The notes under the pieces are model-generated. The model made no database searches. It worked only from the letters and a program-made list of their open reading frames with translations, and was not told the DNA's origin. Source: Calothrix sp. PCC 7716 (GTDB lineage Bacteria > Cyanobacteriota > Cyanobacteriia > Cyanobacteriales > Nostocaceae). From it: DNA of 64,000 nt. The stretch covers positions 8,436,580-8,500,579 of the forward strand of contig NZ_AP025018.1 of the NCBI RefSeq assembly GCF_019977735.1, given 5' to 3'. Positions 5,118 to 6,777 of the stretch are shown here, one piece after another. Position 1 is the stretch's first letter. Every line of letters begins with the position of its first letter. The translations under genes were made by a program, and so were the position numbers.

Positions 5118-5160
5118 GTTATTTGTCACGTTGCAATGTTTTCAAATTTTATGTAGTATG

Positions 5161-5403
5161 GTTGTAACTCGTGGAAGAGGAAAGACCCCTCTGAGAGGTT
5201 TACTTGAACGGGAAATGTTAATTAAGATGATTAGCATTGGCGATTAGTAGGGTAAAACGTATGTGCAACGAGACTGCAACAAAGTGTCATGTTCGCTGTG
5301 TGCTGACTTGAAGTTAACAGTGCGCGGGATGTGGAAGCTGGATGGTACCGCCGTTAATACGGTTCCAGCGAGTAAAACTTAACCCATATAAGGGTTTTTT
5401 GTC
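5161..5403 (+). promoter_or_regulatory. T-box-like riboswitch leader of aspartyl-tRNA synthetase gene
   Basis: About 240 nt of non-coding leader end in a hairpin with T-box antiterminator geometry. Helix A1 is GCTGGA (5337-5342) with TCCAGC (5364-5369). The 5'-side seven-base bulge is TGGTACC (5343-5349), matching the conserved UGGNACC that binds the tRNA NCCA end. Helix A2 is GCCG (5350-5353) with CGGT (5360-5363), and nothing is unpaired on the 3' side. A second hairpin, AACCC (5381-5385) with GGGTT (5392-5396) and a T-run, ends just before the ATG and would cover the only candidate Shine-Dalgarno, AAGGG at 5390-5394. Upstream, 5161-5172 can pair with 5268-5280 as a base helix and 5185-5188 with 5250-5253, giving a stem I-like domain; an AAC (Asn) triplet lies at 5256-5258 on its 3' side. 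The usual stem I motifs (AGTA loop, GNUG) are not convincing. The T-box assignment rests on the antiterminator, the terminator and the downstream gene. Confidence 0.6.
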
Positions 5404-6699
5404 ATGGTACTTTGCTCAAAAAGATTTATTGCAACGCTAGTAGCATCGTTAACTGAAGAAGTTGTTATTTGTGGATGGATACTGCATCTGCGAGAACTTG
5501 CTCGTACTACATTTATTGTCGTCAAGGATTGTAGTGGTCAAGTGCAATGTGTTGTAGCTTCTGAGTTCGTGCGAGAATTGAAGCTCAAACTCGATGAACC
5601 TGTGGAAATAAGAGGTAAAATCAAACCCGATAAACGAGCTAAACTTGGTTTTGAAGTAGAAGTTATTGAGATTAATGTTCTTAATCAAGTATCTGTACTG
5701 CCTTTTAATTCCAGTTCAGATATTTCTGATATTGGTATCGAAACTATCTTGGCTTACCGTCCTTTGTCGTTGCGTCATAGTGATATAGGTGATATTTTTC
5801 GGATACAAGCAGCTATTTTGCAATACTTTCGGCAATTTTTAGGCGCCAGATATTTTACGGAAATAGTCACATCTAAGATAGTATCTAGTGGAACTGAGGG
5901 TGGGACTAATTTGTTTGAAATCAAATATTTTGAACGCGCGGCATATCTTGCCCAAAGTCCGCAGTTTTACAAAGAGTATGGAGTTTCAGGTTTAGAAAGA
6001 GTATTTGAGACTGGTTACGTTTATCGTGCAGAACCTCACGCTAGTAGTAGGCACTTAACCGAATATTACTCTTTAGATTTGGAAATGGGGTTTATTAACA
6101 GTGCTGAAGAAATAATTGAGTTAGAACGAGAGCTACTAACATTTATTTTTGAGCAGTTGAACCAAAACTTTCCAAGTCAACTTAAACATTACAGAACAAA
6201 ATTACTTCCCTCAATGTTGAATGTACCCACTTGGGAATTTAGAGAATGTTTAGAACGACTCAATTATCACTTTGGTCGTAACGACCTTATTGACGACCTA
6301 GACCCAGAAGCAGAACGTCAACTTTGTCAGCTAGCGGAAGCCGAAACAGGAGTACCAGCGCTGTTCGTAATTGGTTTTCCTTTATCTGCAAGACCTTTTT
6401 ACACACACCCACGTGGTAATGAAGGCGCCTCACAAAGTTTTGACTTATTATTTGAAGGCATTGAAATTACAACAGGTGGACAAAGATTACACAAACGCGA
6501 AGATTTAAAACAATCCTTAACAAATCGTAATCTTAACCCCGCTTCATTTGAAAATCATTTACAAATGTTTGAACTAGGAATGCCACCACATGGAGGACTA
6601 GCAATTGGTTTAGAACGTTTAACTTCTCGAATCTTAAATCTACCCAACGTCCGACAAGCATCGCTTTACCCACGCGACAGGTATCGAATCACACCATAA
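5404..6699 (+). CDS. aspS2: Archaeal-type aspartyl-tRNA synthetase (AspS2, probably non-discriminating)
   Basis: A 431-residue class IIb aminoacyl-tRNA synthetase. Residues 15-105 are the OB-fold anticodon-binding domain (VVICGWILHLREL). The catalytic domain has motif 2 around VYRAEPHASSRHL and a motif 3 GLAIGLERL. The C-terminus YPRDRYRITP is of the archaeal/eukaryotic AspRS type; AsnRS enzymes end differently. It is much shorter than the bacterial AspRS (about 590 aa) because it lacks the GAD insertion. Enzymes of this branch often charge both tRNA-Asp and tRNA-Asn. It is probably a second, horizontally acquired synthetase beside the chromosomal AspRS, and its T-box-like leader points the same way. 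Expression is likely controlled by the uncharged tRNA. The start at 5404 has AAGGG nine bases upstream, inside a hairpin. Confidence 0.88.
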   Translation: MVLCSKRFIATLVASLTEEVVICGWILHLRELARTTFIVVKDCSGQVQCVVASEFVRELKLKLDEPVEIRGKIKPDKRAKLGFEVEVIEINVLNQVSVLPFNSSSDISDIGIETILAYRPLSLRHSDIGDIFRIQAAILQYFRQFLGARYFTEIVTSKIVSSGTEGGTNLFEIKYFERAAYLAQSPQFYKEYGVSGLERVFETGYVYRAEPHASSRHLTEYYSLDLEMGFINSAEEIIELERELLTFIFEQLNQNFPSQLKHYRTKLLPSMLNVPTWEFRECLERLNYHFGRNDLIDDLDPEAERQLCQLAEAETGVPALFVIGFPLSARPFYTHPRGNEGASQSFDLLFEGIEITTGGQRLHKREDLKQSLTNRNLNPASFENHLQMFELGMPPHGGLAIGLERLTSRILNLPNVRQASLYPRDRYRITP

Positions 6700-6777
6700 A
6701 AGTGCTGAGTTATGAGTGCTGAGTGCTGAGTATTAATTCCAAACTCAGCACTCAGCACTCAGCACTCAGCACTTTTA
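6699..6777. terminator. Inverted STRR pair, likely bidirectional terminator
   Basis: GAGTGCT heptamers on the left arm face CAGCACTCAG units on the right arm, giving a long hairpin between the convergent aspS2 and lysozyme-like genes. The right arm ends in CACTTTTAACT and the left arm begins directly after the aspS2 stop. Confidence 0.65.

Follow-up and report, generated by a model that had tools for sequence, protein, structure and literature searches.

The window analyzed here is a stretch of 64,000 nt (positions 8,436,580-8,500,579 of the forward strand of contig NZ_AP025018.1, assembly GCF_019977735.1) from Calothrix sp. PCC 7716, whose genome, with the window, measures 12.37 Mb. All coordinates below are those of the window. 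The gene of interest, aspS2, is preceded by a structured leader in which the following elements were located.

5154..5159, + strand: -10-like box TAGTAT, 7 nt 5' of ACTC, predicting a transcript start at the Stem I foot
5164..5370, + strand: sensor part of the putative T-box leader (RF00230 match 5163-5370; 15-sequence alignment and pair counts)
5168..5197, + strand: ultrashort Stem I with the foot CUC/GAG, a kink-turn (3-nt bulge, GA facing GA) and the helix GAGG/CCUC (alignment)
5181..5187, + strand: apical loop AAAGACC, 7 nt, with the specifier GAC (Asp) at 5184-5186
5199..5256, + strand: Stem II with S-turn (GAA 5206-5208 / AGUA 5246-5249) (alignment, pair counts)
5258..5279, + strand: Stem IIA/B pseudoknot (pair counts)
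5282..5336, + strand: Stem III, with RRRNG before it (5282-5286) and AA after it (5335-5336) (pair counts; motif according to passages of PMC7778990)
5337..5369, + strand: antiterminator/antisequestrator A1 and A2 with the T-box bulge UGGUACC at 5343-5349 (alignment)
5337-5342 / 5364-5369 and 5350-5354 / 5359-5363, + strand: helices A1 and A2, respectively (sequence inspection)
5381..5400, + strand: terminator-like hairpin AACCC-AUAUAA-GGGUU and U-run, a candidate that may also hide AAGGG
5404..6699, + strand: aspS2, archaeal-type aspartyl-tRNA synthetase (AspRS) of 431 aa, ATG at 5404 (NF003483)

An earlier, sequence-only reading of this DNA had described an A1/A2 hairpin with a TGGTACC bulge on its 5' side, followed by a terminator-like hairpin and an aspartyl-tRNA synthetase gene, and we found all of these in place, the last two at 5381-5400 and 5404. 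That reading had identified the leader as a T-box and had pointed to the Rfam T-box model (RF00230), even at a relaxed score, as a means of checking it. Such a match was obtained: upon searching 3.5 kb, RF00230 matched 5163-5370 from its first to its last model position with 39.7 bits and an E-value of 1.4e-6, with 74 Stem I model positions swapped for 5 bases. The score is far below the Rfam gathering cut-off of 93 bits, which is a curator's threshold and not a feature of the RNA, and which was exceeded by only two of the five control genomes with family matches. In the complete host genome, this leader was the single match (E 1.2e-6). Among the 15 distinct leaders described below, the model unaided detected nine (39.7-55.7 bits) and missed six (L005, L006, L035, L039, L066 and L124). 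A search across 386 cyanobacterial genomes gave no RF00230 matches under strict filters that also dropped the window's own leader, and is thus uninformative on absence. The folding energy of the leader was not unusual (z -1.13; 26 of 200 shuffles folded equally well).

We aligned 15 distinct leaders, 12 cyanobacterial and three acidobacterial, all located upstream of an archaeal-type AspS2 gene, and counted 37 pairs. The leaders are kin, so shuffles overstate the case, and registers slid along the alignment preserve relatedness but favor a structure drawn from the same sequences; read with these limits, 98.0% of the paired cells were observed as pairs, compared with 92.0% in shuffles and 37.8-49.1% in slid registers, 13 of the 37 pairs changed on both sides (shuffled mean 6.2; slid 0-4), and the covariation score was 0.284 (0.167 shuffled; 0.041-0.113 slid). 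One of the five measures, the number of further pair types, was less striking, 31 against 27.7 in shuffles, a value that 35 of 500 shuffles reached. Changes on both sides were present in upper Stem I, Stem II, IIB, Stem III and A2. In particular, two of the four upper Stem I pairs changed in this way above an invariant foot, and the kink-turn bases were unchanged in all 15 leaders. Four of the seven outer Stem II pairs did so around an invariant GAA and AnUA; the inner Stem II pairs were visible, shifted by one column between groups, and were excluded from the counts. In IIB, three of five pairs changed on both sides, and the first pair failed in seven of the 15 leaders, that of the window among them. 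Stem III showed such changes in two of four counted pairs and A2 in two pairs. Neither A1 nor the Stem I foot showed any, and therefore either alone carries little information. Stem II with its S-turn, the IIA/B pseudoknot and Stem III with RRRNG and AA were all present, and a 7-nt UGGN bulge lay between A1 and A2 in 15 of 15 leaders (S-turn, pseudoknot and RRRNG-Stem III-AA as defined in passages of PMC7778990 and PMC7583486). These results indicated that the T-box elements occur in the right order and that most of them covary across two phyla beyond chance. The T-box identity proposed earlier is thus borne out by the model match, the covarying helices and the conserved bulge; in the related leaders the bulge is conserved and A2 covaries, and A1, which hardly varies, added little.

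To characterize the output, two tests were applied to 16 leaders (the 15 aligned leaders and L041), without multiple-test correction. In the first test, the 3' strand of the antiterminator (AUAUGGUUCC) was complementary to the bases immediately preceding the ATG in L035 (Brasilonema), L036 (Scytonematopsis), L123 and L124, where 8, 0, 7 and 7 of 500 shuffles, respectively, were as good; L121 (48/500) and L008 (148/500) were weaker. The arm used in this test ended at A1, so that the acidobacterial hairpins were missed, and the second test used a longer stretch, folding the 3' strand together with all bases as far as the start codon. Here, four of 300 shuffles were as good in each of L036 and L039, two in L041 and ten in L066; L035 (81/300), L123 (92/300) and L124 (49/300) were not outstanding over the longer stretch. 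For L041 and L066, which are acidobacterial, the predicted fold closes this strand over Shine-Dalgarno-like purines and part of the ATG. Seven of the 16 leaders (L035, L036, L039, L041, L066, L123 and L124) therefore have a predicted translational sequestrator that beats shuffles. In both tests, no sequestrator was supported in L008, L121 or L040, and none better than shuffles was found in the window and its five close relatives (376-404 of 500 in the first test; 44-73 of 300 in the second).

The six genomes of the window's group all contain the AACCC/GGGUU hairpin and a U-run between the antiterminator and the ATG, with constant arms and differing loops. Terminator-like sites numbered three on both strands of 371 bases, compared with a shuffled mean of 0.4, and one of them, on the + strand, was the hairpin in question. 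This hairpin could stop transcription or hide AAGGG. Additionally, a predicted helix (5367-5374 / 5408-5416) overlapped A1 by three bases and enclosed the ribosome site; it was less stable than the antiterminator fold, which in this group was predicted to be more stable than its competitors without tRNA. A start-codon lock formed by a 12-bp helix of the minimum-energy fold (5280-5291 / 5403-5414) was rejected, as 239 of 300 shuffles gave one as strong or stronger and it was the best duplex in only three of the six genomes.

The sequence-only reading had implied that the terminator-like hairpin was the output. The hairpin is real, but it is not clearly the output, and relatives appear to use a translational sequestrator. 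Transcription attenuation in the Calothrix group, by the hairpin at 5381-5396 and the U-run downstream of a T-box sensor, is nevertheless a possibility that we take seriously while giving it less than even weight. The constancy of the hairpin arms in all six genomes and the lack of a sequestrator beating shuffles in this group are in its favor, and in L008 and L121, too, the longer pairing encloses a hairpin with a U-run. However, the hairpin does not overlap A1/A2, both form together in the predicted fold with nothing making them exclusive, the 5-pair stem is weak, and class III T-boxes mostly control translation (PMC10482949).

We consider it improbable that an ancestral working T-box has decayed in the Calothrix group, leaving the sensor as a relic and the gene constantly expressed. 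The preference for the antiterminator without tRNA, the absence of the relatives' sequestrator and the broken first IIB pair in the window's group would all agree with such decay, but the sensor sequence is kept over the six genomes, where the loop, bulge, S-turn and kink-turn bases are unchanged.

The reading head of the leader was highly distinctive. Stem I is 30 nt long and consists of the foot, the 3-nt bulge, GA facing GA, a 4-bp helix and the 7-nt loop; the bulge with the adjacent GA/GA is the kink-turn signature. The weak Stem I motifs, from which a divergent class had been suspected, are explained by this ultrashort kink-turn hairpin. In being short and free of the tRNA-elbow motif, it agrees with the Stem I of class III T-boxes. 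This Stem I pattern was found at 38 sites in 1.34 million collected bases (both strands; overlapping loci), each followed by a T-box bulge. The loop read A[A/C]AGACC in all 15 leaders, with GAC one base before the helix, and L008 and L121 (GACG/CGUC) fixed the register, so that the loop is 7 nt long. With respect to the transcript start, TAnnAT was present at the same distance, 7 nt before ACTC, in ten of ten cyanobacterial upstream stretches and not in the three acidobacterial ones; a strict sigma-70 scan found no promoter. By the -10 box rule for promoters, transcription should begin at the Stem I foot, leaving no longer Stem I hidden upstream.

The specifier GAC (Asp) matched the gene product, AspRS, in 15 of 15 leaders, and the class I T-boxes ahead of clostridial aspS2 genes have GAC at the same specifier place. 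The host tRNA-Asp has the anticodon GUC and the discriminator G73. The bulge began with UGGU in 11 of the 15 leaders and with UGGC in four, and the U or C of UGGN can face G73, U-G being a wobble. The base after the specifier was C in all 15 leaders, which counts against a T-box; a purine is usual at this place according to a passage of PMC7583486. As evident from the specifier, the leader probably reads tRNA-Asp rather than tRNA-Asn. Of the two tRNAs that had been proposed earlier, Asp is thus retained and Asn is not; no Asn codon was present in the loops of any of the 15 leaders.

Three other codons can be read in the loop, namely AGA (Arg), ACC (Thr) and, in 11 leaders out of 15, AAG (Lys). 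AGA and ACC are conserved as well as GAC, and tRNA-Arg(UCU) also has G73, but the gene encodes AspRS, GAC sits at the specifier place of the model, and tRNA-Thr(GGU) and tRNA-Lys have U73 and A73, respectively; we regard the reading of another tRNA as very unlikely. Least probable of all is an unrelated structured leader, bound for example by AspS2 itself, with a coincidental T-box-like bulge, which would suit the low Rfam score but not the correctly ordered elements, most of them covarying over two phyla, and would leave the GAC, UGGNACC and RRRNG/AA motifs unexplained.

We are therefore left with a preferred reading that we hold to be highly likely: the aspS2 5' leader would be a T-box riboswitch of class III-like build that senses tRNA-Asp, with translational output in relatives. 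The sequences themselves show its architecture, covariation and specifier, a genomic tRNA that fits the specifier, and the sequestrators of seven of the 16 leaders; tRNA binding, the sensing of charging and the output in the window are what we infer. In its apical loop, the kink-turn hairpin would present the codon GAC to the tRNA-Asp anticodon GUC, Stem II and the S-turn would clamp the codon-anticodon pairing, and the UGGU bulge would catch the tRNA's free 3' end (GCCA). Uncharged tRNA-Asp would hold the A1/A2 helix, and charged tRNA could not. In relatives, loss of A1/A2 would allow its 3' strand to pair around the ribosome site; in the window itself, the terminator-like or start-hiding hairpin would take the place of this sequestrator. 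Synthesis of AspS2 would then set in once the housekeeping AspRS fails to keep tRNA-Asp charged.

AspS2 matched NF003483 with 472.5 bits (cut-off 353), and its nearest solved structure was 1n9w. The family name says tRNA(Asn) ligase. Upon alignment with 1n9w and 1b8a, AspS2 shared a K with 1b8a at one position (P in 1n9w) and at another had L in place of their H and W; these positions presumably separate tRNA-Asp-only from tRNA-Asn-tolerant archaeal-type AspRS. With such mixed residues, AspS2 may have been wrongly labeled as a tRNA(Asn) ligase. The host also has a 596-aa frame that matched the family in two parts, probably a bacterial-type AspRS, and a 475-aa frame, probably an AsnRS, and with these second AspRS-like and AsnRS-like frames in the genome, AspS2 looks like a spare. 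By established T-box logic, a build-up of uncharged tRNA-Asp, caused by a shortage of aspartate or by inhibition of the housekeeping AspRS, would switch aspS2 on. Under such control, a spare synthetase would provide backup or resistance; microcin C is a natural poison of AspRS (abstract of PMC9239234). Directly after the aspS2 stop (6701-6773), the window contains a long inverted repeat of tandem GTGCTGA-like heptamers, which gives rise to weak Rfam microRNA matches.

The nearest named relatives of AspS2 were those of Calothrix sp. HK-06, Calothrix sp. PCC 7103, Calothrix sp. FI2-JRJ7 and Dulcicalothrix desertica. We searched 60 genomes, counting the host's own; eight had a close AspS2, with 75-100% identity, and in each of these the leader was present. 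A scan of named genomes yielded 35 loci, ten of them with a complete leader: seven cyanobacteria and the MAGs of an Acidobacteria gp2 member, a Pyrinomonadaceae member and a Bryobacterales member. With R1, a custom covariance model based on 12 leaders, three more distinct leaders were detected in cyanobacteria, in each case ahead of an AspS2 gene. The leader is rare: in the host's family, R1 matched 13 of 217 genomes, 12 of them strongly, and the thirteenth match, L125 (21 bits, model positions 36-93), lacked the bulge in the stretch examined and was dropped as chance. In the cyanobacterial draw, one of 386 genomes matched, the host's own, and in the acidobacterial draw two of 396, both already members of the model; a protein search gave the same two of 396. 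In viral contigs, 205 stretches matched a pattern and none encoded a relative. The Solibacteraceae MAG L041 (2453-2488) kept only the antiterminator and sequestrator, with unrelated sequence at the place of the sensor, owing to either real loss or misassembly; it was left out of the 15-leader alignment and kept in the output tests. No leader was found in the 420 bases before the gene in L042 (Myxococcota), and the L043 match was rejected as it begins inside the protein. Ten neighbor proteins at L035, L036, L039 and L040 named no shared pathway.

A maximum-likelihood tree with 42 AspS2 sequences, rooted at the midpoint and with some long branches unsafe, placed a cyanobacterial clade (95/99) beside a mostly acidobacterial clade (95/96). 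The fork uniting both apart from Myxococcota had a support of 90/74, and all three together had 100/100; the AspS2 proteins of Clostridium and Tissierella, whose genes also have T-boxes, lay further out. The earlier suggestion that the leader arrived by transfer with an archaeal-type AspS2 gene is supported by the same leader in two phyla, by its patchy distribution and by this tree. In the simplest story, the T-box and AspS2 would have travelled together, and upper Stem I would have been lost before the acidobacterial and cyanobacterial branches parted.

We compared the leader with known T-boxes. Class III T-boxes have a short Stem I without the elbow-binding motif, a specifier in a 5- or 6-nt apical loop, a required Stem II and usually translational output (PMC10482949). 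The leaders resemble the class III type from the actinobacterium Nocardia farcinica (ileS) in the short kink-turn Stem I without an elbow-binding tip, the specifier in the apical loop, Stem II with S-turn, the IIA/B pseudoknot, the T-box bulge and the predicted translational output in relatives. In contrast, they read Asp rather than Ile, have a loop of 7 and not 5-6 nt and a C instead of a purine after the specifier, occur in Cyanobacteria and Acidobacteria, and appear to have a rebuilt output in the window's group. Since a 7-nt loop falls outside the class III loop definition, we call them class III-like and do not file them as class III.

A similar short leader precedes aspS2 on a plasmid of Rhodococcus sp. 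JS3073 (NZ_CP113952.1, L132:785-960). Like the present leaders, it has a short hairpin with a kink-turn and a 7-nt loop (GUGACGA) that contains GAC, and it has a UGGCACC bulge and a CACCUCC/GGAGGUG sequestrator hairpin over the Shine-Dalgarno sequence; its AspS2 differs, with 39% identity. Neither RF00230 nor R1 matched this leader. Read by eye and folding, it looks like a short translational T-box. According to passages of PMC7583486, translational T-boxes have mostly been identified in Actinobacteria, and most have an intermediate or ultrashort Stem I. The TBDB translational model, as described in part of PMC7778990, was applied to Actinobacteria and to those class I hits whose Stem I was truncated.

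Descriptions of T-boxes assign them to Gram-positive bacteria. Table 3 of PMC2494555 lists none in 13 cyanobacterial genomes, and Cyanobacteria are not named in the parts of PMC12452182 consulted. At the level of titles and abstracts, mostly from outside subscription journals, and in passages of PMC2494555, PMC8632094 and PMC9437257, we found no report of a cyanobacterial or acidobacterial T-box. Within this literature, these leaders would be new: class III-like T-boxes that read Asp, have a loop of 7 nt and occur in phyla beyond the accepted range. We tentatively suggest, as an idea with somewhat less than an even chance of being right, that these leaders form a separate Asp-reading subclass in which a 7-nt loop meets the 7-nt anticodon loop of tRNA-Asp. 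It would be a mobile module that moves with a spare archaeal-type AspRS across phyla and serves as an inducible backup against AspRS failure or poisoning in Cyanobacteria, Acidobacteria and, judging by the similar Rhodococcus plasmid leader, Actinobacteria, and in the Calothrix group its output would have been rebuilt, with a terminator or start-hiding hairpin replacing the sequestrator. If the leader works in filamentous cyanobacteria, then a complete tRNA sensor, as well as a synthetase gene, can move between phyla and function with the tRNA of a new host; Asp would be added to the short-Stem-I design, showing how far Stem I can shrink. As RF00230 misses all of the leaders at its cut-off and six of the 15 at a relaxed score, more may exist in phyla thought to be free of T-boxes.

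The T-box of the tRNA-dependent amidation genes in Clostridium acetobutylicum (Saad 2012, 2013, titles cited in PMC4206432) is similar to the present leader in controlling genes for Asp/Asn charging. That T-box reportedly stands before an operon and reads codons for Asn and Glu, whereas the present leader precedes one gene and carries GAC. The clostridial aspS2 class I T-boxes (Clostridium tunisiense, Tissierella simiarum and a Paraclostridium plasmid) share the gene family, the GAC specifier and the T-box bulge with the present leaders; they differ in their long Stem I, in scores of 117-119 bits, over the cut-off, in a second antiterminator-like match downstream and in an AspS2 identity of 44-46%. 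At these clostridial loci (L044:1687-2152, L062:3499-3953 and L133:588-928), two T-box matches follow one another, a full class I match with GAC and then a second in which mainly the antiterminator is clear.
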